From Pigoraptor vietnamica (lineage: Eukaryota; Opisthokonta; Filasterea): a stretch of 33,494 nt of DNA. Positions 1-29,995 of this stretch are shown here, in pieces. The stretch spans positions 1 through 33,494 of the forward strand of contig CALSCQ010000976.1 of NCBI GenBank assembly GCA_943704525.1, written 5' to 3'. How positions within the stretch are numbered: the first letter of the stretch is position 1; the number at the start of each line of letters is the position of its first letter. The notes beneath the pieces were generated by a model. The model searched no databases. It was not told the DNA's origin and worked only from the letters and a program-made list of their open reading frames with translations. A program made the position numbers and the translations under genes.

Positions 1-1695
1 CCCCCCCCAATTGCCGACCGACGCCCCGTAACTCACCCGCACCATCGCGCAGTCCGCAAGATCGCGCCCCTTCCCGAGGACGAGGGCGTCGTGTGTTACG
101 CGCGCGCTCTCTTCGATTACGAGGTTGTGGGCGGCGGCGAGGACGACCTCAACTTCTTCGAGGGTGACGTCATTGCCATTCGCGCCAAGAGCACCGACGG
201 GTGGTGGACGGGCGAGTTCAACGCACGCACTGGCCAATTTCCGTCGTCTTTTGTGCGGGAGCTTGAGCCCGGGGAGTCGCGCGAGTGCAAGAAGAAGACG
301 CTGACCGTCGGCCCTGTTGTCTCCGTCTCGTCGCGCCCGCCGTCGTCCCCCGCCATGTCGCGCGTCAACACCTCGGGCCATCGCCGCTCATCGTCTGCGG
401 GCAACTTGCTCGAATCGAAGAGCCCTTCGATGACTGGCCACCGCCCGCCGTCGTCCGCCGGGGGCTCTGCGGCCGCTGCACCCGAGTCGCCGAAGGGTGC
501 GCGCCCGACGTCTGAGGCGGCGAAGGCGGGCGAAGGGATTTCGTTTGAGAAGATGAAGCGCGCCATGCACACGCGGACGAAGAGCAGCGAGGGACTGCCC
601 GTCGGCGGGAAGGGCCGCATTGACAAGTCGATGATATCCCTCCCGCGTCAGGACAGCTTTGAGCACGTGGCGCACCTCGGCTTCGACGTGGAGAGGGGGA
701 CGTTCGATTCTCGCAATTTGCCGCAGGAGTGGGTGAACAAGATTGAGGGGAGGAGCGAGGGGTCAGGGTCGGCGCCGACAACCCGTGAGTGGCAGCGTGC
801 CTTGTCTCGATGTGTGTGGTGGTGTGACTGCGTCTTTGGACAGCCGTATGCTTCGTGTTCGAATTGCAGGCTGTGCTCGTGTCAGTGCGATGTCACTATG
901 CGTCAGTCTCCGCAAACGCCCATTTGTTGACCATCCTTCTCTGCCGCAGCGACGATGCCGCGCTCCCCCATCCCACACAACAGGCCCCCGCCACCTGCGC
1001 CCGTCAATTCGCCGAACAGGGCACCTCCGCCGCCCCCTCCCGGCGCCGCCCACCCCACGCGCGCAGCACCGCCGCCACCCCCTTCGTCCTCCGCGGCCAG
1101 TGCGCCCAAACGCCCGCTGTCGACCGACCTCTTGAACATGCCACCGGTGCCGACGAAACCGCCGCCGCAGCCACCCGCCGAAGGGGAGGAGTCGCACGCA
1201 CCGAAGCCCGCCGCGCCGCCCCCGCAAGTTTCCCGTAAAGCGCCGCCGCCGCCCCCGCCAGAAGACGACGAGGCGCGACGGCACAAGATTGAGCAGAAGC
1301 GGCGGCAGATGATGCTGGAGGACCAGGCGAATTCGGCGAACGCGTCCCCTTCGCAGAGTCCGCGCACATCGGCACACGAGGGCTCCGCAATGCCCAGTGC
1401 ACGCACGTCTGCGCACGAGGGATCCGCCGCCCCATCGCCCCGCACGTCCGGACACGAGGGAGGTGGGCATTTGGCCGCGCACGCATCGACGGCGAAGCGA
1501 AAAAGCGCCGAGGGCGAGCGGTACAAGGTGCTGTTCGACTACCATGCGGCGCGCGACGACGAGTTGAGCCTCACCGCGGACGAGATTGTGCTCGTGACGT
1601 ATGTCGGGACGGACGGGTGGATGAAGGGCTCGCTGCCCCAGAGCGGTGCCGTGGGCATGTTCCCTGGCAACTATGTGGAGAAGTGTGGCGAATAA
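1..1695 (+). CDS. SH3-CRIB-polyproline-SH3 adaptor, 5' partial
   Basis: Two exons are visible: 1-784 (open in frame to the window edge, so the true start or an upstream exon is missing) and 950-1695, joined across intron 785-949 (GTGAGT...GCAG) without loss of frame. Order of parts: an SH3 domain (ALFDY near base 105, paired tryptophans, PSSFV near 250); a Ser/Pro linker; a CRIB/PBD-like GTPase-binding motif around bases 630-740 (ISLPRQDSFEHVAHLGFD); proline runs of 5-7 residues in bases 970-1260; a 12-residue segment repeated three times (SPRTSAHEGSA-type, bases about 1355-1465); and a C-terminal SH3 (VLFDY, GNYV) ending in TAA at 1693-1695. Known biology: CRIB motifs bind GTP-loaded Cdc42/Rac, SH3 domains bind proline motifs, and proline runs bind profilin or SH3. 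I infer a cytoplasmic scaffold linking Rho GTPases to actin. No kinase domain is visible in this part. Confidence 0.85.
785..949 (+). other. Intron of the SH3-CRIB adaptor gene
   Basis: Donor GTGAGT at 785 and acceptor CTGCCGCAG ending at 949. The exon before ends one base into a codon, and the next exon supplies the other two (Pro), so the reading frame carries directly into the proline-rich region. Confidence 0.85.
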
Positions 1696-2041: not shown

Positions 2042-4993
2042 TCACACGTCCTCCATCTCCGGCTGTCCCTCCGTCTCGGGCTGGCTGCTGCCTGCCATCG
2101 CGAGATCGTACGCGTCCCAATCGCAGTCGTCCGTGTTGTCTGCCTTGGCCGAGACAGGCACGGCGTCCGCGCGGTCCCCGGACTCGCCACCCTGCTCCGC
2201 GTTGGGTAAAACGAGCGTGTGGAGCGACAGGGCCACCGACAGGCGACGCATGAGCGATGCCTTTGACTTGACGCTCTGCAGCGAACGACGGCCTACGAGG
2301 AACGGCCTCTCGCCCGCTTCCGTCGGCGACGTGGCGTGCTCTCCGCGGCGCATGTCCTCAAACACGTTCGTTGGGATCGTTACGAGGGGTCGCGGATCGG
2401 CGGCTTCGCCTTCTTCTGCCCATGCGGTGGTCGCGTGGGCGGGCACCGACGGCGCAGTTCCTTGCACAAGCTTCAGCGACGACGTCGCGAGCTTCTGCGA
2501 GGATGCCGAAGTCGCGAGCTTCTGCGAACCGGCCGCCAGCTTCTGGGAGCTCAGCGCAGGCGGCTGCGTGACCGACGACTTCTTCTTCGTCCGGTGAACG
2601 GCCGCTTCTGGGTCAATCTCGCGCGTGAGGATGCAAGGTGCGACGAGGATGAGCAGCGCCGTGCTGTCGCGCGCCGACGTGTAGAAGTACTTTCCGTAGA
2701 AGAGCGCGATGACGGCGAGGCGGTTGCAGAGGAGGAGGCGCACGTCGACAGAGAATCCGGCGCCCGTTACGGTGAGGTCGGACTTGTCGAAGAGGCGGAG
2801 GTAGATGGCGACAAACGCAAACGAGCACGCGACCAACCCAAGCAGGATGGCGTACTTTGTCGACTTGCGCATCTTGGCCGACTGCGCGTCAAAGCACGTG
2901 CACATGAGGTGCCCCGTCGACGCGAAGAGGACGTACCACACGCGCACGTCCTGGCGAAAGTAGAAGATGAAGCCGACCATCTGCCCGATGTTCTCAAACA
3001 GCATGAAGTAAAACTCGAACGTGCGCGCGACGAGTCGCATAATGTCGAGGTTCGACTTGCAGACGATGGCGGCGTGCAGGAAAATCCCAAACGCGGCGAC
3101 GGAGAGACACGCAGGGTGCCGCACAAACTGCACGTCCGCCACGGCGAGGCAGGACAACAGCGCGCCCGAGAGCCACAGCATCGACAGCACGAACGACACG
3201 GCCGGAATGCGCATCGTATTCCAAATAAGGTTGATCGCCCGCTTGCCAAATATGGCGTGCCCGAGCATCCGCGACATGTCAATTTTGTGCTCCACCGCCA
3301 GCGACTGCAGGTAGTAACGCCGGCGTGTCCCTGCGGACGGCCCGATCATCGGGTTCGGCACGGGCGCGACGTTCCTCGCCGACCCGCCGGTCCCCTTCCC
3401 ACTCCCCGTCGCAAGGCTCTTGCCGCTGCGCATGGGACGCCCACTTCCGCCATTCGCGGTCGTTCCGGTCGCCGACGACGCCTGCTCCGCCCTTTCGCCC
3501 TTCTCGGCCCTCTCCGCCCTCTCCGTCCTTGACGAGGGCTTAGGCGTGCCGTCGTACGTGCTTGTCTCCGCCATGCGCTCGTCCTCAACGACGCCCGGCA
3601 GCGTCGTCTCCGTTGTCAGCGGAGGCCGCGCGACGGGAAAGAAGATGGTGTCCGATTCCTCGCTCGACAAGCGCTCGCGGTCAAATGTGAGGCCGCTGTC
3701 GTCCGAGAGCACGCGGTGCCCGTCCATGTGCAACAGCCCCGAATCCTGCCGCGACTTCATCGACAGCGCGCTTCCCTGTCGTCCGTTCAAGCGCGCGACG
3801 GCAACGACTTCGGCCGGCTGCGAAGGCGGGTTCGGAGCCGCGCCATCTGCCTGTCCGCGGGCGGGAAGGGCACCGTCCGCCGTGCGTTGAGCACCTGCAT
3901 TACCCGTGGGGACACTGTCGGGCGACCCGACACTTGCGAGGCCTTCAAAAAGCGACGCAGACGGCACAGCGGAGAGCTGCGGCCGTGCGAGAGAGGCATT
4001 GCCGCTTGCCTTGAGCGCGTCCTGGATCATCACGGGGAGCCCCTTCGGGAGCGTCGCAGAGACGTCAACGTCGAGCTTTGTCGACACGAACGCCGCCTCC
4101 GTCTTGGGGATGGACGTGTCCGTGCCCATCGGCATGCGCTGCAGCTTGAAGCCGCCGTGCAGAAGAATCACGTTGCGGCGGTCCTTGTAGAGCGTCACGG
4201 CGTATTTTGTGAGAAAGATGATGATGTTAAGGCAGAAGTCGAGCGCGATCACGCGAATGTCCACGTAGCCGTCCGCCACGCCCACCCGCGGCGCCGTGTC
4301 GTACTGCGACCCCAGCCGAGCTCCCACCACGACGTACGCGACTATCAGCGGCAGGATGGCAAACGCGAGCCGCTCGAGCACGCGCGCGCGGAGTCCAAGG
4401 GCCATGGCGTCCGCAACGAGATAGTGTAGTATGCCGAACTTGAGCGCGGTGACGGCCGTGAGCATGCGAAAGTCCCAGCCCCACAGCCACGACAGCGCAT
4501 AGACAAAGCCGACCATCTGCGTCGCAATGAACCAAAACTCGAACGACCGCATCAGGCGCAGCGTGACCGTGCGCGTCGTGCAGAGGTCCCACACGAGCGC
4601 GTAGAACGTTGCCGCGGCCGAGAGGATGGCCGTCAGCGCGATGCCGACGGGCCCAAACTTGACATGGCTGCACGAGAACACGCTGAAGAGCACGACGGCC
4701 GCCGACCACACGACGTAGCCGCATATGTTAAACGCCGGTTTGCGGAAGACGCCGTAGATCGCCTTCCACCGCCGCCCAAACACAGCTCGTCCAAAGATGT
4801 CGTCGTTGCGCAGCTCGTGGAGCACGGGGCGAGCGACGAGGTACCGCACGTACCTCAGCCCAAACCCGGCGGGCGTCGAGAGGATCTCGTGGTCAATCGG
4901 CGTTGCATTCGCGTCATGAAAGTCCACGGCGTCCACTGGCGCGACCACATCGACCTGAGCGCCCTCAGCGGGCGGACACTCGGCGTCGGCCAT
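2042..4993 (-). CDS. Two-module polytopic membrane protein, unknown family
   Basis: A 983-residue uninterrupted frame. The ATG (4993) is preceded directly by an in-frame TAG, which fixes the start. Two homologous hydrophobic modules lie at residues about 50-287 and 560-792, each with roughly six membrane segments. Shared landmarks: IFGRAVFGRRW versus HAIFGKRAINL; RSFEFWF...QMVGFVY versus RTFEFYF...QMVGFIF; and a closing Lys-Tyr segment near 262 and 768. Between them is a 270-residue Ser/Pro/Ala-rich, probably disordered cytosolic linker containing a repetitive ERAERAEKGERAEQ stretch. The C-terminal tail is also disordered, carries four SSQKLA-like repeats and an acidic end. I recognise no transporter, channel or receptor signature. 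It is intronless while most neighbouring genes carry several introns. The two-fold repeat suggests a carrier- or channel-like fold, but that is inference. Confidence 0.85.
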   Translation of the reverse strand: MADAECPPAEGAQVDVVAPVDAVDFHDANATPIDHEILSTPAGFGLRYVRYLVARPVLHELRNDDIFGRAVFGRRWKAIYGVFRKPAFNICGYVVWSAAVVLFSVFSCSHVKFGPVGIALTAILSAAATFYALVWDLCTTRTVTLRLMRSFEFWFIATQMVGFVYALSWLWGWDFRMLTAVTALKFGILHYLVADAMALGLRARVLERLAFAILPLIVAYVVVGARLGSQYDTAPRVGVADGYVDIRVIALDFCLNIIIFLTKYAVTLYKDRRNVILLHGGFKLQRMPMGTDTSIPKTEAAFVSTKLDVDVSATLPKGLPVMIQDALKASGNASLARPQLSAVPSASLFEGLASVGSPDSVPTGNAGAQRTADGALPARGQADGAAPNPPSQPAEVVAVARLNGRQGSALSMKSRQDSGLLHMDGHRVLSDDSGLTFDRERLSSEESDTIFFPVARPPLTTETTLPGVVEDERMAETSTYDGTPKPSSRTERAERAEKGERAEQASSATGTTANGGSGRPMRSGKSLATGSGKGTGGSARNVAPVPNPMIGPSAGTRRRYYLQSLAVEHKIDMSRMLGHAIFGKRAINLIWNTMRIPAVSFVLSMLWLSGALLSCLAVADVQFVRHPACLSVAAFGIFLHAAIVCKSNLDIMRLVARTFEFYFMLFENIGQMVGFIFYFRQDVRVWYVLFASTGHLMCTCFDAQSAKMRKSTKYAILLGLVACSFAFVAIYLRLFDKSDLTVTGAGFSVDVRLLLCNRLAVIALFYGKYFYTSARDSTALLILVAPCILTREIDPEAAVHRTKKKSSVTQPPALSSQKLAAGSQKLATSASSQKLATSSLKLVQGTAPSVPAHATTAWAEEGEAADPRPLVTIPTNVFEDMRRGEHATSPTEAGERPFLVGRRSLQSVKSKASLMRRLSVALSLHTLVLPNAEQGGESGDRADAVPVSAKADNTDDCDWDAYDLAMAGSSQPETEGQPEMEDV

Positions 4994-5966: not shown

Positions 5967-8900
5967 CTACTTCTGGCAGACAACCTTGCGGCACATCGAC
6001 TGGCAGCCAAGGATGCCGCACGAGCGACTCCACGAGTTGAAGACCGTGTAGCACGAGTACTGAAAAGGAGTCGGAAAGAGGACGGGTAAATAACAGACTA
6101 TGCAAAAGTACGGCACGATGCAATGCGCGAGGTACATCCGCTAAGGGGGAGCGCAAACTCACCTGGCTGATGAGCTCGCCGCCGTCCGAGCACGTGCGGG
6201 CGTACGAGTCGCTCGAGAGGCCGAGGTCGGCGATGCCGCAGTTGGACGACCAGTACTCCTGGTACCCGCAGTTGCAGGGCGCGTTCGTGACAATGCGGCA
6301 CTCGAGCTGGCAGCCAGTGTAGGCGAAGCCGCACGACTTGGCGCCGTCGCGGAGCACGCCCCCGAGGCCGCTGCAGGCCTCGGGGTTGGTGGGAGAGCCG
6401 CCAAAGTTGCACGACGGCTGCCCAAAGACTGCGCGGAGGGATGACAGACGTCAATGTAAGGCACACGGGCACCGTTGTGGTCTTGCGACAACACGGTAGA
6501 AAAGGAAGGACAACGAACGTAGACGACAGTGGCGCAACATGAATGATGCGGCTAGACGCACCCTGGCAGTCGCTCCAGTACGTCGAATACTGGCACGAGA
6601 TCGACTTGCACGACGTCTGGCCCGTGCCGGTGAAGCCGGCGGGGCACGGCGTGCACGAGTAGCTGCCGACGTTGTTCACGCACTGCAGCGAGGGACGCGG
6701 GTCAGTTCCTTAGAGCTTCAACGTCGCAAAGTCCTCGTTGCGCACCCAAGTCACGGGGACATGACGCGCAAGCTACTCACCGTCGTGTACTGGTCGCAGC
6801 CGGCGGGCGTGTTCTTCGTGCCGTCGTACGTAAGGCGCGCAGTGTCGCACTCGTTGACGTCCTGCACAATCACCGTGCGCGTGACGCGCGTGGCGGCGTT
6901 GCCGGCGGCGTCCGACACGTCGAAGTTAATGCGGTACGTGCCCACAGTGCGCACGTCGACCGAGCCCGAGCGCACGATCTTGTTCGTGATCGTGCCGTCA
7001 AAGTTGTCCGACGCCGTCGCGCCAGCGTCGACGTAGGCATTGGCGGGGAGCCACGAGATGGCCTGCGTGATCGTGACCGTGCTCTGGCCCAGAAGCGAGA
7101 TGGTGGGCGCCGTCGTGTCTGCGTGCGGGCGAACGGGACGTTGAGATCCGTGTTCGAGGGCAATACGACAACAGGTTCATGCAACAGTGGCCCAAATTGA
7201 GCGCAAATACGCACCAACGCACGAGCGGATGCCGTCGCCAGTGAAACCGGTAGCGCACGTGCACGTGTACGAGCCCTGCGTGTTGCGGCACTGCAAGCGA
7301 CAAATAGGAACGGGTGAGGCTTCGATGCATGACCACACGCCCACACAAACCAACATCAACAAGCGAAACGAACAGGGCCAGAGAGGCACGGTCACTCACA
7401 ATAGCCTGGGGGTGGCACGACGGGTAGATGGCGGGGTTGGGGATCGCGCACTCGTCAATGTCGGTCACCGTCACGCTGATGCGCTGGGAAGCGGCGGCGT
7501 TGCCGGCGGCGTCCATGACGTCATAGCGAATGCTGTACGTGCCGACCACCTTCGTGTTGACCGTGTTCGAGACGGCAATCTTGCTCGAAATGTCGCCGTC
7601 GAGGTTGTCCGAGGCGCGCGCGACGGGGACCGTGAGGCTCGAGTACTGGCGAATCGAAATGGGCGTTGTGTCGACCGAGATGATCGGGGACGTCACGTCG
7701 CGGCACGTCTTGCCGTTGCCGCTGAAGCCGACGTTGCACGTGCACACAAACGAGCTGATCGTGTTCGTGCACTGCGAGCGAATAACACACATAGCGTCAG
7801 CATCACATGACAGGATTGCGAGGCAACAGACGGGACTTGCGAGTTATACAGAAAGTGCAAGTTGCAACACGCAGCGAAAGTGTGAGAGACTCACCGTCGC
7901 ATAGGGCGAGCAGTCGTGCTTGCGGGCATCGGTGCGCGTGCACTGCAAATAAGGGGCAGCACGTAAGTAAAGACACGCACACAAAAAGACGGCACTACAC
8001 ACGGGCCGAGATAGTATGCGCGCGCTTGTCACCCATCGCCACAGCACGTGACTCCCTTTCGGCCCGGGTCAACGCACCTCGTCAATGTCGCGGACTTCAA
8101 TGTCGATCGTCTTGTCCTGCGCCTGGTTGCCAGCGGCGTCCGTGACGCTGTACGTCACCGTGTACCACCCGGCGAGGGCCGTGTTGACGTTGCTCACGAC
8201 CTTAATCTTCGACGAAATGTCGCCGTCGTAGTTGTCCGTCGCGCGCGCGATCGGGACAGTGAACACGTCGTACTGGTTAATGTGGACCTCGAACGTCGAG
8301 GGCACAATGACGGGGGGCGTGACGTCGGCGCACGTCTTGCCGTTGCCGGAGAAGCCGTCGTTGCAGATGCAGTCGTACGTCGACTTGCGGTTGACGCAGT
8401 AGGCGTTCCGGTCGCACTTGGCCGCGTGGAGGTTCGCCTCGGCGAGCGTGCACTCGTCAATGTCCTGCACCGACACGACGCGCGTCGTCGTCCCGACGTT
8501 GCCGGCGGCGTCCGTCGCAGAATATGTGAGCGTGTAGTCACCGGCCGTGTTCGCGTCGACGGAGCCCTGCACCGAGATGCTCTTCGAGACGTCGCCGTCC
8601 TTGTTGTCGCGCGCGGTTGCGCCGGGGTCCGAGAACGACGTGAACTGCTCGACGACGATGGTGGCCTCGCCCTTGAGCTCAACCTCCGGCGGAGTAATGT
8701 CGTCGCAGGTCACACCGTTTCCACGGAAGCCATCGTCGCACTTGCACTGGTGACGCAGACAAAATGCGTTAGCACCACGCAGGCGCGCACGCGCACGTGC
8801 AGAACGCACACGCACGGACATGCAGTGCACACCCGCGACTGTCCGACGTACCTCAAAGCTGCCGATCGTGTTCTTGCACGACGCAAAGTAGTTGCAGTTG

Positions 8901-9255
8901 TTCTTCCACGTGGCGGTCTTCTCGGCGCACTCGTCGACGTCCGTGACAATCGCCTTGACGGTGAGGATGCCCGTGTTGCCCGTCGCGTCCGTCGACGTGA
9001 ACGTCAGCGTGTACTCGCGAGGGACAGTCGTGTCGACGCTGCCCGAGCGCTTGATCGACGCCGTGATGTCGCCGTCGAGGTTGTCCGAGGACGTGACGCC
9101 AAACATACCGGCAATAATGGAAGAGTCCGAATACTGGGACACCGACACGACGGGCACAGCGCTGCGGACGACGGGAGGGGTGATGTCTGCCGGAAAACGG
9201 ACGAAGGCGAGCGTGTGAGTAGATTGACACGCGCACCCGTCCACACACACACAAG

Positions 9256-9300
<45 letters not shown>

Positions 9301-9779
9301 GCGCGCGCGCACACACACACACACACACAAGCGCGCGCACACACACACACACCCATACACACACACACACACACACACACCACACACACACACACATACA
9401 GAACATCTACGGCGAACACAGACAGAGAGCGGAGTGCTGGAGAGATCGCTCACCGACGCAGTTGAAGCCGTCGCCAGAGAAGCCGGCGTTGCACGCACAC
9501 GTGAAGCTGCCGATCGTGTTGGTGCACTTGGCATAGTCGCTGCATCCCCGGATGTTCAACTTCTTGTCGTTCTTGAGGAGGCACTCGTCGATATCGACGA
9601 CCTCGACGTTGAGCGTCGCAGTGGCCTGGTTGCCGGCCGAGTCCGACGCCGAGTAGACGACCGTGTACTTGCCGGGCACCTGCACGCAACAAGCACTGTC
9701 AGCACTCAGCGAGCGTGTAACGGAGAGGTTGAGGGGCAGAGGGGTGTGGCTATGCATTACGTGCCTGCTTGTTTGTGTT

Positions 9780-9841
<62 letters not shown>

Positions 9842-10147
9842 CGCGCGCGCACTCCACCAACCTTCGCGTCGATGTTGCTCTTGCTCGAGACGACAATCGC
9901 CTCGCCAGAGTTGTCCGTGGCCGACGCGTCGGGCGTCATGTAGGGATCGTACTGGAACAGCGTCACGTCGCTGAGCGAGTTGATCGTGATGATCGGCGCC
10001 ATGATGTCCTGGCAGGCCTTGCCGTCGCCAGAGTACCCAAACTGGCACGTGCACTTGTAGCCGCCGTTCGTGTTGGCGCACTGCGGGCGAGAGATGGGTC
10101 ACGTGGTGGGCATACGATGCGCGTATACATATAGAAGGTAAGGGACA

Positions 10148-10185
<38 letters not shown>

Positions 10186-11068
10186 ACACGCAAACACACT
10201 CCCACACAACAGGGAGGATCACTCACATCGGCATGCGCGTGGCACTGGTGGTGGTAGGGGTTGTCGGCGGGGAGCGCGCACTCGTCCACATCAGACACAA
10301 TCACGGTGCGCACCGCCGTCGCCTTGTTCAGCGCCGCGTCGGTCGACTGCAAAGGGAGGATATGGAGATTAGGCGCGCGAATGCAGACTCACGGGAACGG
10401 TAGGTATGGCAGGACAGGGGGAAGACGAGATCGAAACATTACACGCGACGTGCAGTTACACTGGCCAAGCGAAAGTTTCGCGTACGCCACACTCACCACA
10501 AACGTGACAGTGTACGAGCCGGGGAAGTGCGTGTTGACGTTGTTCGTCTGGACAATGGCACCCGAAATGTCGCCGTCGAGGTTGTCGACGGACGTCGCGC
10601 CGAGGTCGTCGTAGGCAGAGTACTGGGGGATCATCACGGTCGAGTCGCCCTTGAGGGTGAGGACGGGGGGCGTCGAGTCTGCATGCGCGCGCGTGCGGTT
10701 AGAGAGGCAAAGTCACGCGACGCTTGGAGTGACACACACGCACACACGCACGTACTCACGCGCACACGCAGCGCACGAATGGAACAATAACACGGCACAA
10801 TCAATGTCATATAGAGCGATCACAAGCGCCATTGCATAACCCACCGCGGCACTCAAGGCCGTCGCCGGAGAAGCCGTCGTTGCAAGTGCAGGTGCGGTCG
10901 CCGAACGTCTGCGTGCACGTCTGCACACGGGAACACAGCCGCATTAGTGAGGAACAAAGAATTCTCGCAAAGCCGGCGCTTGTGAAGAACCCCCTCAAGG
11001 GCCGCATGCAGTAACCGGGAATTGTTACGATGATGCGGTACGGTGGACAGAGGTAAAACGACAACACA

Positions 11069-11101
<33 letters not shown>

Positions 11102-11102
11102 G

Positions 11103-11150
<48 letters not shown>

Positions 11151-11473
11151 ACGCACGGCGCGCGCCCGACACACAGTTTAAGAATACAGTCATGGACACC
11201 CACCGCGTGCTCGTCGCAACCGCCGTTGTACGCGGCGCAGAAGTCAATCGAGTACTCGCAGCACTTGCCAAAGAAGCCCGGGTCGCACGCGCAGAACACG
11301 CGCGCGTGAATCTTGCCGTGGCCGCTGCAAGGCTGGGGCGCGTTTGCCGCATTCGAGATCACGGCAGGGCCGAAGAACTTTGAGTTGTCGGGGCACGCCT
11401 CGTACGGGGGAGGCGCCGCAATAACAGCCACCACGCAGGCGGCGAGGACCGCCGCGACGGCAATGGAGCGCAT
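5967..11473 (-). CDS. Secreted DUF5011/calcium-binding EGF repeat protein (paralogue A)
   Basis: Fifteen exons on the minus strand: 11204-11473, 10845-10920, 10497-10678, 10227-10346, 9862-10080, 9454-9679, 8852-9186, 8078-8746, 7895-7942, 7400-7771, 7215-7290, 6781-7118, 6562-6682, 6163-6428, 5967-6059. They sum to 3411 bases (1136 residues plus stop) with every junction in frame. An in-frame TGA just upstream supports the ATG at 11473. A signal peptide (MRSIAVAAVLAACVVAVIAA) is followed by a short Cys-rich segment, one EGF, then seven units each of a DUF5011-type Ig-like domain (xxPP..., [17 protein letters not shown]) plus an EGF of the calcium-binding type (D-I/V-D-E-C, then C-x-N-T-x-G-S-Y/F). 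The C-terminus is a Cys-rich module of about 140 residues. No membrane anchor is visible, so it is probably secreted or part of a matrix. Its function is not known; adhesion is inferred from the domains. Confidence 0.9.
9187..9453 (-). repeat. Intron dominated by CA/GT microsatellite
   Basis: This intron of paralogue A is mostly (CA)n on the + strand, with short GCGCGC insertions, from about 9238 to 9402. Alternating purine-pyrimidine tracts of this kind can adopt Z-DNA. Donor GTGAGC and acceptor CCGGCAG flank it and keep frame, so the repeat is spliced out. Confidence 0.85.
9785..9837. repeat. (GT)n microsatellite in an intron of paralogue A
   Basis: An uninterrupted run of about 26 GT units lies on the + strand inside intron 9680-9861. 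On the sense strand of the gene it reads as CA. Confidence 0.9.
11065..11150. repeat. (CA)n microsatellite in intron 1 of paralogue A
   Basis: Imperfect, then perfect, CA repeats within intron 10921-11203. On the sense (minus) strand this is (GT)n. The intron uses donor GTGGGT and an acceptor in GTGTGCAG. Confidence 0.85.
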
Positions 11474-12313
11474 CTTTCAGTTCCGTCTATTCGCGCACAG
11501 GCACGCGAAACTACAGAGGTCGACGTAGAGCACGAGAGTGACGACAAGGCAGCTCTTGTTCCCTTGTACCTACAGAGTGTCGCAGGGAGAGAGGGGAGAG
11601 AGGGAGGGAGAAAGGGAGAGAGGGAGGGAGAGGGGAGGTGAGGGAGAGCGTGGGAAGAGCGAAGTGAGCAGCACGCGCCACAAACATGGCTCTGAAAAAT
11701 AAGCCGGCTGTGGGGGTGCGACCGACAAGTGTTAAATTGCAAGTACCCTCCAAACTTTGGCGAAATTATGCGTCGATTTCAGATTATTTGCACCGGGTGA
11801 GGAAAACACACCAATCGCAGCCAAGGAACACGCGAACCAAGCGCTCTGATTGGTCCGCATTGCAAAATTTGGCTATGGAAAAAATGGCTTAGAATGTCCG
11901 ATCCCTGCTTACTGGCTCGCACACGGACACAATACATAATCCATAATCAACGCTCAATAGAACATTATTCTACTGAATTGCCAGGAACAATGAATGTGTG
12001 TATGGGTCCCATACATTGTCCATAGTGAAGAGCGGCAGTGCGCTGCGTGGGCCGCGGCTCAAAACAACGGCCACGCGCTCTCTTTCGCCTCAGGCTCAGC
12101 CACTCTACTCACACGCACACACACACACACACACACGCACACTGGCACACTGTCCCTCTCTCTCTCTCACGCCCCACCCTCTTGCCACCTCAGACTTCGC
12201 TCCTCCCTTCGATTCCTCTCGTCGCGGCAAGTTTTTTTTATCTGCCGTTCGCATTCGCGCTTCCGACAGCGCACATTGGTCCCTTTGTGTGTGGCGCGTT
12301 AGGTCGTTCGAAG
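11474..12313. promoter_or_regulatory. Divergent promoter between the two EGF-repeat paralogues
   Basis: 840 bases separate the two start codons, which point away from each other. The region holds a polypurine stretch (about 11585-11650, GGGAGA units), a pair of facing CCAAT boxes (CCAAT 11811-11815 and ATTGG 11849-11853), an AT-rich stretch (about 11930-11985), and CA and CT runs (12113-12180) in the probable leader of the + gene. The arrangement suggests a shared bidirectional promoter; that is inference from position and CCAAT boxes. Confidence 0.6.
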
Positions 12314-15300
12314 ATGGCGCGGACGACGCTCGTTGTGCTCGTGCTTGCGGCGGCGTGCGCGGGGGTGCTCGCTGCGCCCCCCAACTACCCCGTCTGCCAG
12401 GACCTGCTCGACATGTTCCAGGGCAAGCAGGTTCTCACGGGTGCGTGTGCGCGCGCGTCGATGCGCACTCGCTATTGAATGTTTGTGTGCGATGCGGTGA
12501 GAAACTGGGCGATTTAGGAGCAACGAAGGCGACTGTGTTCGCTTGAGTTGTCTTTGACTTGACAGGCACTTCTGTTTTGTATCGTGCACTCCCCGCTTGT
12601 CATGTGCGCATGCCGGTGACAGTTGTCGGTGTATTTTGGCGCGTTATGCCGACTCTGTGCGTCTATTTTGTGCGCAGACCCCTCGAAGGCTCCCGTCGTC
12701 TGCAGTGGTCACGGAAAGGTCCACGCTCGCCTTTGGTGAGCACATGTGTGTGTGTGAGTGTGTGTTGTGTGTGCGCACTCATAAATGGGTGAGATGACTT
12801 TTGAACGGTGAGCACGGCCTTTTGTATTTCGACTCATTTAATGCCCTGTGTCTTTAGGTGCGCGTGCGACGAGGGCTTTTATGGCCCTTGCTGCGAGTAC
12901 GACCTTGATGAGTGCGGTGTCCACGGCACGTGCGACGACCATGCCCAGGTTCGTAAATTGCCCGGTGTAATGTGTGTGTGGTGCGTGCGTGCGTATGAGC
13001 GTGCGTGCCTGCATGCATGTGTGTGTGTGTGTGCGTGTGCGTGTCGTGTGTGCGTGTCGTGTGTATGTGCGTGTGTCTGTGCGTGTGCGTGTGTGTGTGC
13101 GTGGATGTGTGTGTGTGGAGTCCTGTGAAACTTGGCCTTTTCTGACCCGAGTGTCATCTTGCGCAGTGCACGAACACGCTCGGCGACCGCCAGTGCGCCT
13201 GCATTGAGGGCTTCTCTGGCGATGGCCTCACGTGCAACGGTGAGCCACTAATGTTAGCACTTCCGCACACAACGCACACACACACAGAGCACGCACGCAC
13301 GCATGCACGCACTCGTCACACATGCCCTAACCGTGTTCGCCTCGCAGACATTGCGCCGCCCGTTCTCGCGCTCGTTGGCGAGACGACCATCTCCCTCCAC
13401 CAGTACGACTCTTTCAACGACGCCGGCGCAACGGCCAACGACAACCTCGACGGCGACATTTCGTCGCGCATCTCTGCGTCGTCTGACGTGTCGACGGCGT
13501 CTCCTGGCTCGTACTCTGTCACTTACACGGTACGCATGCGCGGTCGCCTTTCTTGCTGTAATCCTTTGTTGTCTTTGCGCGAGGATAGCCGTGACTCATG
13601 CGTGCGCGTTTTTGTGTGCTTGCAGGTGAGCGATGCCGCCGGCAACAAGGCGACGATCAAGCGCGGCGTGGTCGTGCTCGACATTAACGAGTGCACGCTC
13701 CCCCGCGACAGCCCCTACGCCGACAAGTGCCACGCGAAGGCGTCGGTGCGTATTGCGTGCGTGCGTGCATGTGCGTGCGTGCATGTACGTGCGTGCATGT
13801 GCGTGTGTGTGTGCATGCGTATGTGTGATATCACGCATGTGCGCCAGTTCGTTGCCGTAACACGGGAGTCAACGTGCGCAGTGCGACAACACGGATGGCT
13901 CGTACAAGTGCACGTGCAACAAGGGCTACCAGGGCGACGGCAAGTCGTGCGTCGACATTGAAGCCCCCGTGATCACGGTCGAGACGGACCAGGAGATTAC
14001 GATCTTCCAGTACTCTGGCTTCAACGTCCCCTCTGCCTCGGCCACCGACAACTCGGACGAGACGATCTCGGTCAAGACGACGTACAACATTGACACTAAG
14101 GTCGGTGTGCAGTAGTGCGTGCCTGCATGTGTGATTGTGTGTGTGTTCCTGTTGCTGAGATGGCCGCGTCCCTTGACGCAGGTCCCTGGTCGCTACCCCA
14201 TCGCCTACACTGCGTCGGACTCTGCGGGCAACACGGCGACGGTCACGGTCATGGCGGAGGTGTTTGACGTCGACGAGTGCATGCTGATGAACTTTGGAAA
14301 GGCCAATTCGAAGAACCCGCTCCCCTTTGCCGTGTGCTCTCGGTGGGCCAAGTGCACCAACACGATCGGATCGTACGTGTGCGAGTGCAACACTGGCTTT
14401 GCTGGCGACGGCTTCCAGTGCAACGGTACGTCCTCTCGCCTGCTTGCGTGGATTGCCCCTGCGCGCGCGTATGTACGCGTCTGCAACTCGTGGCGTTCGC
14501 ATGTGTACGTGTCTATGTTGAGCACGTACTTCTCTCTCAACCGCCTTCCACCCCTCCCGCAGACGTCATGCCCCCTGTGATGCTTCTCAAGGGCAACCCC
14601 GTCGAGCGCCAGCCGCAGTTCACCAAGTACGTGGACGACGGCGCCACGGCCTCCGACAACGTCGACGGCGACATTTCCTCCAGCATTCAGATCTCTGGAA
14701 CGGTCGACGTGAGCACGCCCGGCACGTACACCGTCACGTACTCTGTGCGCGACGCCGCCCTCAACGCCGCCAGCATCACGCGCGAGGTCAACATTGACGA
14801 CGTCGACGAGTGCGTCCTTCCCCCCTCGAACCCCAATGCCCACAAGTGCCACGCCTACGCCTCGGTGGGTCTCTCGCTGGCAGCCGTTCGTGCATGCGAC
14901 GTGAGCGCTGTATTGTTTGTCGTTGCGTGTGCCTATGTGGTGTATCTTGAGAAAGCCAACTGACTCGCGTTCTGTCGGTCGTGCGCAGTGCGCCAACACG
15001 ATCGGCTCGTACACGTGCAAGTGCGACGTTGGCTTCAGCGGCGACGGGTTCAACTGCAAGGGTGTGTGTGCGGCCGCTCTAACAGTCCCCGTCGTTTCAT
15101 CACACGCGCGAATGTCATATTTTCCTCTCACTCTGTTAACCGCCCCCCTCCTTCCTCCCAGACGTCACGCCCCCCGTCATCACGGTGAAGGGTGCGTCGG
15201 TGGAGCGTCAGGAGCAGTTCACGGACTACGCCGATGACGGCGCGACCGTCCTGGACAACCTTGACGGCGACATTACTCGCCTCGTCTCGCTCTCGGGCTC

Positions 15301-17282
15301 GGTGGACGTGACGGTCCCCGGCGACTATGTCCTCACGTACTCGGTCGCGGACGCCGCGGGCAACCAGGCCACTGCGACGCGCAAGGTGACGATTGTTGAT
15401 GTCGACGAGTGCAACTTCCCCGCTGGCGCGCCCCACGCCGACAAGTGCGACGAGTGGGCATCGTGCGAGAACACGGTTGGGTCGTACAAGTGCAAGTGCG
15501 ACGACGGCTTTGTGGGCGACGGCTTCACGTGCAAGGGTGCGTGCGGCCGATTGCTGTGTTCTCTTTCTCGTCATTTCATTTTGCCTAGAGCCATACTTTG
15601 CGCTGTACCGTGTCTACCTGCACGCACTCACCGACATCTTTCTGCGCAGACGTCACCGAGCCTCACGTTGAGCTCAAGGGCGCGGCGACGATGACGGTCG
15701 ACCAGTACTCGACGTACACGGAGAGCGGCGCCATTGCGACCGACAACAAGGACGGCGACATTTCCGCGCGCATTACGCTCACTGGAAGCGTCGACACTCG
15801 CAACGTGGGAACGTACACGATCACTTACACGGCGACGGACGCCGCCGGCAACTCTGCGTCGGCCAAGCGCACGGTCACTGTCCAGGACATCAACGAGTGC
15901 ACTTCGCAGAACGAGAACGCGGCCAACTGCGACCCGAACGCGTACTGCGTCAACCTCCAGAACTCGTTCCAGTGCATCTGCAACGACGGCTTTGCCGGCA
16001 ACGGCAAGACGTGCAAGGACGTCACGCCCCCGATCATCTCGACGCTCGTTCAGGGCACGTACATCAACCAGTACGACACGTTCACGATCCCCGCTGCGTC
16101 GGCGTCTGACAACTACGACGGCGATCTCACGTCGCGCATTGCGGCCGTGAGCAACGTCAACCCCAACGTCCCCGGCTGGTACGCCGTCACTTACGACGTG
16201 AAGGACGCCGCTGGCAACGCCGCGACGACCAAGACGATCGAGGTCGAGGTCCGCGACATTGACGAGGTGGGTCTTGTCGAAGCATCTTTGCTTGCGCGAG
16301 CGCCTGCCATACAACGGCGTGTTGTCTTGCGCGATTTTGTTGCGAATTGTGGGCACTATCAATCTAATTGTCAATTAATTATCGGCACTATCAATCTCAC
16401 CCCCCGAACGTGTCTCGCTTGCCGCAGTGCACGCGCACGGATTCGCGCAAGAACAACTGCTCGCCGCAGGGGTGGTGCCTCAACACGGTCGGCTCTTTCA
16501 AGTGCACGTGCAACGACGGGTTCACCGGGGACGGCGTCAAGTGCCGCGACACGACCGCGCCCGTCATTACGGTCAACACGGCGCCCCTCGCCTTTGATCA
16601 GTACTCGACCGTCACGCTCCCCGTGGCCACCGCGACGGACAACTTCGACGGCGTCATCACGAGCCGCATCCGCGTCACGTCGTCCGTCAACAACAAGGTT
16701 GCCGGCACGTACGTCGTTACGTACGATGTTACGGACGCGGCCGGCAACAACGCCGTCCGCAAGTCTGTGACGGTGGACATCCGCGACATCAACGAGTGCA
16801 CGAGCCCTGTGGTCAAGCACAACTGCTCGCCCTATGGCTTCTGCACGAACACGTTTGGCTCGTTCACGTGCGGGTGCAACGATGGCTTCCGCGGGGACGG
16901 CGTCACGTGCGCGGACGTCACGGCGCCCATCATTACGGTGTCTGTGGCGTCGACGAGCGTCAACCAGTTTTCGCAGTTTGTGGTGCCCTCTGCGACGGCC
17001 ACGGACAACCTCGACAAGGACGTCACTGCCAACATTCGCATCACGAACCCCGTCGACACGCGCACGGTGGGCACGTACACTGTCCGCTACGACGTGACGG
17101 ACCGCTCCGGCAATGTCGCGACGCAGCGCACGGTGGTTGTGACCGTCAACGACATCAACGAGTGCACGATCTCGGACGCCACGCTGCGCAACAAGTGCCA
17201 CAAGTATGCGACGGTGAGTCAAGCCCGTGAATCGTCTGTCGAGACACTCGCCCGCTGCGTCTTTGTCGTGTGTGGCTTCCGG

Positions 17283-17359
<77 letters not shown>

Positions 17360-18497
17360 GTGTCTTTTAACTTTGAATACTGTTGTCTTCCGCAGTGCAC
17401 CAACACGGTCGGCTCGTATTCGTGCGCGTGCAACACTGGCTTTGCCGGCGACGGCTTCAGCTGCACGGACGTGACGCCGCCCGTCATTACGCTCGTTGGC
17501 ACCGACTCGATCACGATCAACCAGTTCTCGTCGTACAAGGACGCCGGCTTCACGGCGTCGGACAACCTCGACGGCGTCATTACGTCGAAGGTTGGCGTCG
17601 CCGGCTCGGTCAACACGAACGCCGTTGGCACGTACACGCTCTCGTTTAGCGTCCGCGATGCCGCCGGCAACGCTGCCCGCACGATCACGCGCACGGTCAT
17701 TGTGCAGGACATTAACGAGTGCCTCACGGCCAAGACCTCGCCCGACGGCACGCTCACGCCCAACGGCTGCGACAAGCGCACGACGGTGAGCGTGCCACAT
17801 GTGTGCTGTGGTATGTGCGCTTCAACCACGTTTCTCATTGCCTCCCCCTTCGTCCTACCTCCTCCACTCTAGTGCGTCAACACGGTCGGCAGCGCGTACT
17901 GCACGGGCTGCCCCGCCGGCTTCAGCGGCGACGGCGTCCGCGGGTGCTCTCCCATCGCCTGCCAGTACCAGGACTACTGGTCGACCGCGTGCGGCGCCAT
18001 TCTCTCGTCCGAGTCGAGGCGCTGCTCTGACGGCGGGAACCTGATCAACCCGAGCTCGTGCACGACGCACTTTTACTCGAACAGCCGGGGCTGCGGTTTC
18101 CTCAACCTCGGCTGCCAGTCGCAGTGCCGCAAGGTGCTCAACGCGCCCTGCAACTGCGGGTACCAGGAGTACTGGTCGTCCAACTGCGGCGTCGCCGACC
18201 TCGGCATCAGCTCGACGTCATTTGCCCGCACCTGCTCGAACGGCGGCGAGCTCATTTCGCCGGTGCGTGTTGACCCTCTTGCGCGGCTGCTGCCCGTTGC
18301 CGCCTTTTGTTTTTCAGTCTGTACAATGTGTGTCCGTGTGTGCGTGTGTGTGTGCGTGCTTGGGACTTCATGCCTTACAATTCCCCTTCTCCCCGCAGTA
18401 CTCGTGCTACACGGTGTTCAACTCGTGGAGCCAGGCGTGCGGCACGCTCGACCTCGGCTGCCAGTCCAAGTGCCGCAAGTACGCGTGCCAGTACTGA
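12314..18497 (+). CDS. Secreted DUF5011/calcium-binding EGF repeat protein (paralogue B)
   Basis: Sixteen exons: 12314-12440, 12678-12735, 12858-12948, 13167-13239, 13348-13529, 13626-13745, 13882-14100, 14182-14425, 14563-14864, 14989-15061, 15162-15536, 15650-16266, 16428-17213, 17396-17785, 17873-18262, 18399-18497. They sum to 4146 bases (1381 residues plus stop), all junctions in frame. A signal peptide ([20 protein letters not shown]) is followed by a Cys-rich segment, one EGF, nine DUF5011 plus calcium-binding EGF units, and the same Cys-rich tail as paralogue A. Units 3 and 4 share a VERQ..QFT motif, and units 7 and 8 have similar NCSPxGxC EGF starts or flanks, suggesting recent internal duplications that explain the two extra units. 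Three consecutive exons (182, 120 and 219 bases) match paralogue A exactly in length. No membrane anchor is visible. I infer a secreted matrix or adhesion protein with calcium-rigidified rods. Confidence 0.9.
12996..13116. repeat. GT-rich intron sequence in paralogue B
   Basis: Imperfect (GT)n with GTGC variants inside intron 12949-13166. The donor here is GTTCGT, one of the less usual donors in the window. Confidence 0.8.
17284..17353 (+). repeat. T70 homopolymer in an intron of paralogue B
   Basis: Seventy consecutive T residues lie in intron 17214-17395, ending 42 bases before the acceptor CCGCAG. Exons on both sides (ending KYAT, resuming CTNTVGS) join in frame and match the EGF pattern, so the run is intronic. 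The exact length may be unreliable because homopolymers are hard to sequence. Confidence 0.9.
17877..18497 (+). other. Tandem cysteine-rich C-terminal modules of paralogue B
   Basis: After the last EGF come two copies of a module of about 65 residues. Each begins C-x-Y-Q-x-Y-W-S (ACQYQDYWS, then NCGYQEYWS), continues with RCSDGGNLI or TCSNGGELI, and closes with LGCQSxCRK. The second copy is split by intron 18263-18398. Paralogue A has the same two modules, the first more diverged. I do not recognise it as a named domain. Confidence 0.75.
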
Positions 18498-20636: not shown

Positions 20637-21878
20637 TCACGCGCGCCCATCGCCGCGCTGCCCGCATTCCTTTCGATGCTGTGTCCACGCGGCCTTTTGG
20701 CAGTCGCGGGAGCAGTAACGCACGGCATGGCAACCCCCGCACTTCAGCAGCTTGCCGTCACCCTTCCCACACATCGCGCACGTGCGCTGCGCCAGTGCAT
20801 CCAGGTTGCCGCCGGACGGTGTGGGCTGCGCAGGTTGCGCGGCAGAGGGAGCAGGTGCAATGATAACAGGGCTCGCGTCCGTCGCTGCGGCCTTCGAGCC
20901 CGTTCTACGACTACTCTCCTGGGCGGACGGCGGCGCGGCTTTTGTCAAAGGAGACGGCGCAGAGCGGCCGGTAAACGCAGCCGCGGCGTTCGCATCCGGC
21001 GCGGAATTGACCGCTCTTGGAGGCACGGACAGCTTGCAAACCGCTTCTCCTGACATGGCTGCCATAATATTATGGGACGTCAGACAGATGCCGGACCAGC
21101 TTAAATCATGGACGCTTGTTCATCGACTCCATAGACGTCAGAGAGAGTGTGTGCCGCCCAACCGGCTTTGAGAATCACATTGATCGACAAGAGGCACATG
21201 CACGCGCACGCACACACACACGCACGCACGCACGCACAAATTGCAGGAGATGCAGTGCTTGCACAACGCACACACGATGAATAATAGGGCTGCCGTGCAC
21301 AGCACTCACCCTTAGGGCACATGTGAAGCCTGTTGAAATAGACGGAGGAGGAAATGACCGGGTGGTGCTCAAAGTGGCATGCGCAGCAGCCTACGTTCGG
21401 ACGCGCCGCCATATTGGACGGGGAGAGGAATTCGAGTCCCTGTCGGCATACACCTCACGTGAGACACGGGCGAGGAGTCGTACTCGATGTACGAGAGATG
21501 CTAGAGTGCAGACAGTACTAATTCAATGCAGAGCGCAAGGAACGCAGGGAGAGAGGAGAACACATGCAAAAAAAAAAAAAACGTGAGGACGCGAGCACGA
21601 GCGGCATAAGCAGAGTGCGATCGGCTTTTCCTCACCAGCCGGCGCAGGTGCTTGTCGTAGTCTCCGTATTGCTCGGTTGACATTACGTCGAGGATAGTCA
21701 CCCCCGCGGCGTCAAACATGGCGGCTACTTTGTGTTCGCCCTGATGCGAGAAATCCATGCGAATTTCAGCACACTCGAATTAGGAACTTGAAAGTGCCCC
21801 TTTGCGTTTGTGGTCACAGAGAGCCCTTACTACAAGCGTCGTTGGAAGACTTTACACACATAGCGTTCAGCGAATGGG

Positions 21879-25408: not shown

Positions 25409-29995
<4,587 letters not shown>

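Follow-up and report, generated by a model that had tools for sequence, protein, structure and literature searches.

The locus and its gene models

The window analysed here is a stretch of 33,494 nucleotides (nt) from the genome of the filasterean Pigoraptor vietnamica (assembly GCA_943704525.1, contig CALSCQ010000976.1). It carries two divergent, head-to-head genes, A on the minus strand and B on the plus strand, whose start codons are separated by 840 base pairs (bp) and whose products are putatively secreted chains of alternating Ig-like DUF5011 domains and calcium-binding EGF (cbEGF) domains. The genes and their exons, in coordinates of the window, are as follows.

5967..11473, minus: gene A, 1136 residues (putative signal peptide, N-terminal cap, EGF1, seven DUF5011-EGF units, two tail modules)
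11204..11473, minus: A exon 1, putative signal peptide, N-cap, EGF1 start
10845..10920, minus: A exon 2, EGF1 end
10497..10678, minus: A exon 3, most of DUF5011-1
10227..10346, minus: A exon 4, DUF5011-1 end, EGF2 start
9862..10080, minus: A exon 5, EGF2 end, DUF5011-2 start
9454..9679, minus: A exon 6, DUF5011-2 end, EGF3
8852..9186, minus: A exon 7, DUF5011-3, EGF4 start
8078..8746, minus: A exon 8, EGF4 end, DUF5011-4, EGF5, DUF5011-5
7895..7942, minus: A exon 9, EGF6 start
7400..7771, minus: A exon 10, EGF6 end, DUF5011-6, EGF7 start
7215..7290, minus: A exon 11, EGF7 end
6781..7118, minus: A exon 12, DUF5011-7, EGF8 start
6562..6682, minus: A exon 13, EGF8 end, start of tail module 1 (degenerate)
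6163..6428, minus: A exon 14, remainder of tail module 1, most of tail module 2
5967..6059, minus: A exon 15, tail module 2 end and stop
12314..18497, plus: gene B, 1381 residues (putative signal peptide, N-terminal cap, EGF1, nine DUF5011-EGF units, two tail modules)
12314..12440, plus: B exon 1, putative signal peptide, N-cap start
12678..12735, plus: B exon 2, N-cap
12858..12948, plus: B exon 3, N-cap, EGF1 start
13167..13239, plus: B exon 4, EGF1 end
13348..13529, plus: B exon 5, most of DUF5011-1
13626..13745, plus: B exon 6, DUF5011-1 end, EGF2 start
13882..14100, plus: B exon 7, EGF2 end, DUF5011-2 start
14182..14425, plus: B exon 8, DUF5011-2 end, EGF3
14563..14864, plus: B exon 9, DUF5011-3, EGF4 start (exons 9 and 10 form one 375-nt unit between phase-1 introns)
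14989..15061, plus: B exon 10, EGF4 end
15162..15536, plus: B exon 11, DUF5011-4 and EGF5, a 375-nt exon bounded by phase-1 introns (DUF5011-4 and DUF5011-3 are sister domains)
15650..16266, plus: B exon 12, DUF5011-5, EGF6, DUF5011-6
16428..17213, plus: B exon 13, EGF7, DUF5011-7, EGF8, DUF5011-8, EGF9 start (the piece that was folded)
17396..17785, plus: B exon 14, EGF9 end, DUF5011-9, EGF10 start
17873..18262, plus: B exon 15, EGF10 end, tail module 1, most of tail module 2
18399..18497, plus: B exon 16, tail module 2 end and stop

The initial annotation had drawn two genes of 15 and 16 exons diverging from one 840-base region, and these models hold: after splicing, the reading frames are uninterrupted in both, and all 29 introns (14 in A and 15 in B, 81 to 283 nt long) have GT-AG borders. 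The splice junctions were aligned to two transcriptome proteins, P0002 and P0003, of Opistho-2, identified in PMC9492541 as the filasterean Pigoraptor chileana, and 27 of 29 are free of gaps. This is the case for 15/15 junctions of B (11 against P0003 and 4 against P0002) and for 12/14 of A against P0002. Introns 1–7 of A fall within the A-like half of P0002 (7/7 gap-free), and introns 8–14 can be compared only with its B-like half (5/7 gap-free); one of the two misses is a single residue and the other lies in the divergent first tail module. Since these transcript-derived proteins of another species have the same domain plan and match at nearly all junctions, chance and gross errors in the models are very unlikely. 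Pseudogenes or wrongly chained exons are likewise very unlikely, in view of frames intact over 31 exons, consensus splice sites and the junction matches.

The introns of A contain TG/CA repeats of 20 to 54 bases (9264-9380, 9784-9837, 11107-11148), and intron 13 of B contains a run of 70 T (17284-17353).

Domain organization

Pfam family PF16403 (DUF5011, Bact_surface_Ig-like) is found seven times in A (whole-protein E-value 1.3e-97) and nine times in B (2.2e-139), which are the numbers of alternating units given in the initial annotation. EGF_3 is found eight times in A and ten times in B, one EGF domain more than DUF5011 domains in each protein. The plan is thus EGF-(DUF5011-EGF)x7 in A and x9 in B, with strict alternation in both, followed by two Cys-rich modules. 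The DUF5011-EGF repeat is about 124 residues long, and the calcium-type EGF domains directly abut the preceding DUF5011 with no linker.

PF16403 is the best Pfam family for 16/16 Ig-like units, with scores of 38.9 to 85.1 bits that all lie above its curated cut-off of 27 bits and ahead of HYR. HYR or cadherin identity, which would have placed the units in an already described family, was therefore rejected: HYR is the best family for 0/16 units and weaker than PF16403 in every one, although it passes its own cut-off in six (A2, B2, B4, B5, B8 and, exactly at the cut-off, B1), and no unit reaches the PF00028 cadherin cut-off (28.8 bits). Summed over the whole protein, PF00028 exceeds this cut-off (29.3 and 30.6 bits), and cadherins are present among the lower-ranked fold matches. 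By sequence and by fold, the solved structures nearest to the Ig-like units are accessory domains from a bacterial chitinase (4hmc), a Bacteroides lipoprotein (5fq3, 5fq8), a Bacillus protein (2kpn) and bacterial adhesins, e.g. SraP and internalin K. The fold comparison with the structure model of B exon 13 (pTM 0.49) covered residues 42-244.

Calcium motifs run through both chains. The sequence D-[IV]-[DN]-E-C opens 7/8 EGF domains in A and 9/10 in B; the first EGF reads DLDEC in B and SIDFC in A. The full EGF_CA pattern (D/N-x-D/N-E/Q before Cys1, and D/N plus an aromatic residue between Cys3 and Cys4) is present in 6/6 internal EGF domains of A and 8/8 of B, and the EGF domains at either end of the two chains do not match it.

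Both N-termini consist of a hydrophobic stretch followed by AAP, in keeping with the signal peptide proposed earlier, and neither protein has a second hydrophobic segment of equal strength. A short Cys-containing cap precedes EGF1 in both. With the first 21 residues removed, the chains contain even numbers of cysteines (70 in A and 82 in B). The signal-peptide-like start, the extracellular-type domains and the even cysteine numbers together suggest that A and B are secreted and disulfide-bonded.

N-x-S/T sites are scarce compared with shuffled sequences in A (0 versus 12.9), B (2 versus 17.1), P0002 (3 versus 17.0) and P0003 (0 versus 6.8). The two bacterial repeat proteins used as controls gave 18 versus 40.5 (P0004) and 36 versus 38.0 (P0005), and the ectodomain encoded by a third DUF5011 gene of this genome, described below, gave 5 versus 5.1. 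Rods that are smooth and unglycosylated would lend themselves to close packing, but the scarcity is only a lead, because the repeats are not independent and one of the two controls is also low.

The Cys-rich tail

All parts of A and B are known except the tail. Both proteins indeed end in a shared Cys-rich tail, as had been claimed, but it consists of a module of about 60 residues that occurs twice (first residues 1005 and 1069 for A, 1247 and 1312 for B), and the first copy in A is degenerate. Seven cysteines are invariant over eight aligned copies of the module. No Pfam or NCBIfam family scores over its cut-off in the module, and there are 0 PDB sequence matches at an E-value of up to 10.

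Searching the genome (32.5 Mb, 1395 contigs) identified a single tail module in a short protein at another locus (contig C196, L017:1488-1763, minus strand) with 49% identity to the tail of B. The open reading frame (ORF) in front of this module resembles, by eye, a membrane segment, behind which the module probably lies. In the protein database, the tail query matched two proteins among 74 candidates. One is P0002 (83% identity), and the other is P0122 from the basidiomycete mushroom Tetrapyrgos nigripes (residues 272-332, 46% identity over 60% of the query, E-value 5.7e-14), whose other domains are EF hands and PAN. The module, of which single copies thus also occur elsewhere in this genome and in a mushroom protein, may represent a new small domain family.

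Relatives in other organisms

The protein database was searched with B among the 7994 candidates sharing most exact words, at lengths of 760 to 2417 residues, so that longer, shorter or very divergent relatives may be missed. Of 2420 hits, the best two are the P. chileana proteins P0002 (1254 residues, 60% identity to B) and P0003 (789 residues, 65%). Among the 120 matches listed, only these two combine PF16403 with EGF_CA (PF07645), so the alternating architecture sought in the database was found in one other species; another of the matches listed, P0028, has EGF families without PF16403.

P0002 is a mosaic. Its sequence resembles A as far as about residue 630 and B from there on, with 247/317 informative sites fitting a single change, and 78 residues around the switch are identical to the end of P0003. 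Chimeric assembly of transcripts over a converted stretch explains this most plainly, though P0002 may instead be a real recombinant.

A third DUF5011 gene lies elsewhere in the P. vietnamica genome (contig C911, L016:3123-6383 and 7045-7917, both minus strand). It has four PF16403 domains with EGF-like stretches between them in one long exon, a hydrophobic segment and a PPxY-like tail (both by eye), and an upstream exon that encodes hemopexin and fibronectin type II domains. This receptor-like gene shares PF16403 and the EGF-like stretches with A and B, but no tail module was seen in it; its product may be their counterpart in the membrane. Used as a query, it gave 83 hits, with PF07645 in none of the matches listed and one named eukaryote (Cymbomonas).

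The distribution of matches raises the question of whether the DUF5011 part entered the lineage from bacteria and was recently joined to resident EGF modules. Of the 120 matches of B listed, 117 are without EGF_CA, and the named organisms among these are bacterial, Opistho-2 aside. In a domain tree of 231 rows (one best domain per hit, with many rows unnamed and the bacterial label assigned by us), the 29 rows of A, B and Opistho-2 lie among the rows of those matches. However, the tree is built on 81 columns, leaves 119/223 forks open and cannot place the origin, though it is compatible with a single origin of the 29 rows. Also against a recent bacterial entry are the 29 introns of A and B, the third DUF5011 gene and the DUF5011 domains reported for choanoflagellate transmembrane proteins (PMC5043372). 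We regard such an entry as unlikely.

Duplication history

The initial annotation described A and B as an inverted pair, and they are duplicated head-to-head genes. Ten of A's 14 introns are common to both genes in alignment column and phase, and DUF5011 units pair across the genes by position (clade support 100/99 for A2/B2, 98/96 for A4/B5, 91/69 for A5/B6 and 83/84 for A7/B9). Shared introns and positional pairing mean that the whole gene was duplicated. Moreover, A1 to A4 pair with units 1 to 4 of P0002 (92/49, 90/68, 100/100 and 98/91), and B1, B3 and B4 pair with units of P0003 (98/98, 98/93 and 94/80), placing the duplication earlier than the divergence from P. chileana. As judged from these sequences, the inverted pair goes back to an old duplication of the whole gene. 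A recent inverted duplication was rejected, as identity between A and B is 57.6% over 1115 codons, with agreement at 62.8% (203/323) of shared four-fold sites versus 41.7% expected by composition. Concerted evolution within each gene was rejected too, since the units pair across genes and species and not within a gene.

The exception is B3 with B4. These are sister units (99/99), each exactly 375 nt between phase-1 introns, which fits the duplication of one symmetrical exon unit. The number of units would then have changed after the whole-gene duplication, by duplication of single DUF5011-EGF units.

The region between the genes

The two start codons flank a region that contains a repeated 14-bp element.

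11474..12313, no strand: region between the two ATGs, 840 bp
11652..11665, minus: 14-bp element ACTTCGCTCTTCCC, 179 bp 5' of the ATG of A
12194..12207, plus: copy of the element, ACTTCGCTCCTCCC (13/14 identical), 107 bp 5' of the ATG of B, in the same orientation to its gene

The region contains two non-simple inverted pairs, compared with 0.03 per dinucleotide shuffle, and 0/100 shuffles reach two. The second pair, the 14-bp repeat TGTKTGTGGCGCGT, was rejected as a shared element, being TG-rich and common (12 copies genome-wide versus 29 of a reversed control), so only the first pair counts, and its own significance is modest. Genome-wide, the first element occurs at the two sites listed above and nowhere else (the reversed control occurs once). 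As it was picked from these very sites and about one chance copy is expected, the count proves no more than that the element is no general promoter motif. Nor is the spacing unusual here: about 970 bp separate the 3' end of A from the next long ORF. A shared promoter for A and B is possible, with the 14-bp element as the one sign of shared regulation and a lead to it, and the two genes may be co-regulated; the co-expression and common filament suggested in the initial annotation are hypothetical.

Proposed function

From the gene models, domains, calcium motifs, relatives and duplication history we infer, with moderate confidence, that A and B are old paralogous secreted chains that form rods in a matrix or on the cell surface, stiffened by calcium and with the tail as anchor or cross-linker. 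The signal peptide would export both proteins. Behind it, an EGF cap and seven or nine repeats would make a long chain of 15 or 19 domains, predicted to form a rod of several tens of nanometres. In fibrillin and other cbEGF proteins, calcium sites at the EGF N-terminus stiffen the joints between domains; calcium bound at each EGF N-terminus of A and B, where it joins the preceding DUF5011, would stiffen these joints in a fibrillin-like way. The paired C-terminal Cys-rich modules may then fix the rods, or link them to one another, within a matrix, a cell coat or an aggregate.

Several points weigh against this. Chains of EGF and Ig-like domains are also found in soluble ligands and receptors, and the matrix or adhesion role is read from sequence. 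The inter-domain geometry in the model of B exon 13 is not trustworthy, as its low pTM indicates, which makes the stiff rod a prediction. With a mean pLDDT of 30 in the predicted tail fold, the role of the tail is a guess. As for the history of the pair, A1/B1 and A3/B3-B4 do not resolve as pairs in the unit tree, and unit 5 of P0003, just before the stretch shared with P0002, is nearer to A4 than to B5 (84/74), with no clean orthology.

Pigoraptor preys on large eukaryotes and forms aggregates, according to PMC7147346, which leaves matrix, coat and adhesion roles open. The same habits suit soluble or surface recognition of prey or partner cells, in which the DUF5011 domains would be spacers or sugar binders and the tail a binding head. 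The matches of DUF5011 found here include bacterial surface proteins and glycoside hydrolases, and the solved structures nearest to the Ig-like units come from the chitinase, lipoprotein, Bacillus protein and adhesins named above. On the other hand, the family lists of A and B show no catalytic or known lectin domain, and the tail has neither a family over cut-off nor a PDB relative by sequence. Recognition is a possible function, but clearly the less probable one.

A narrower proposal is that B is an integrin ligand, recognized by host integrins through the RGD at residue 982 in EGF8 (window 17041-17049 region). The motif is kept in P0002 (residue 855), and integrin beta stretches score over cut-off on three contigs of the genome. 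However, RGD is absent from A and from P0003 (which ends before that EGF domain), and it falls within a common EGF string, GFxGDG, in which the R is a single-residue change. Its conservation is weak evidence, as the stretches are about 75% identical (45/60 columns in two blocks). The chance that B is such a ligand is slim.

Returning to the calcium-stiffened rods, it is conceivable, though doubtful, that they make up a fibrillin-like matrix that a Pigoraptor-type filasterean lineage built from a bacterial-type Ig domain, i.e. paired, co-regulated calcium rods of different length with an undescribed Cys-rich assembly module at the tip, whose genes recombine as in the Opistho-2 mosaic. If true, it would mean that an elastic or adhesive matrix was arrived at independently, along a pre-animal route. 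A and B are in any case candidate matrix or adhesion proteins in a close unicellular relative of animals, combining a domain best known from bacteria with EGF domains of the animal-matrix type, and a concrete, testable pair with which to address the composition of filasterean aggregates and coats.

Other features of the window

On the 3' side of A, a single-exon ORF of 983 residues (2042-4993, minus strand) looks like a multipass membrane protein by eye and has no Pfam family, and ORFs at 1-1695 (plus strand) contain an SH3 domain, a P21-Rho-binding stretch and a second SH3 domain. On the other side of the pair, a MYND finger is encoded at 20637-21119 (minus strand), and 26529-28385 (plus strand) encodes what looks by eye like the end of a response regulator followed by a phosphodiesterase-like HNxxH stretch, although its single exons have no Pfam hit. 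Rfam and tRNA scans of the window found nothing.

Comparison with known systems

The initial annotation knew of no named family with this architecture, and none with a strict DUF5011/cbEGF alternation was found in the literature searched. A loose co-occurrence is in print, the 'DUF5011 super family' together with EGF_CA given for a jellyfish polydom-like protein (PMC8748825). This case and the choanoflagellate proteins (PMC5043372) indicate that DUF5011 is not confined to bacteria.

The closest likeness is to the proteins of P. chileana. P0002 and P0003 have the same domain plan and calcium motifs, and P0002 also has the tail; they differ in that P0002 is an A/B mosaic and that unit 5 of P0003 does not pair with B5. 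Bacterial surface proteins with tandem DUF5011 domains (e.g. P0019 of Oleiphilus) carry the same Ig-like domain in long proteins, but, unlike A and B, they are bacterial and have no EGF family listed. Hyalin and other HYR proteins, and polydom (SVEP1), likewise combine Ig-like HYR-type units with EGF domains in one secreted protein. A and B are set apart from them by units that all fit PF16403 better than HYR, and the vWFA, sushi and pentraxin domains of polydom are not listed for A or B at an E-value of up to 0.01.

The TB domain (PF00683) is also not among the families of A or B at this threshold; genome-wide searches for TB and Cadherin_3 were silent, but so were their controls. Fibrillin and LTBP are secreted chains of cbEGF domains with the calcium motif, joined directly to another domain. 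A and B resemble them in this general design, and differ in that the second domain is DUF5011 and in their tail.

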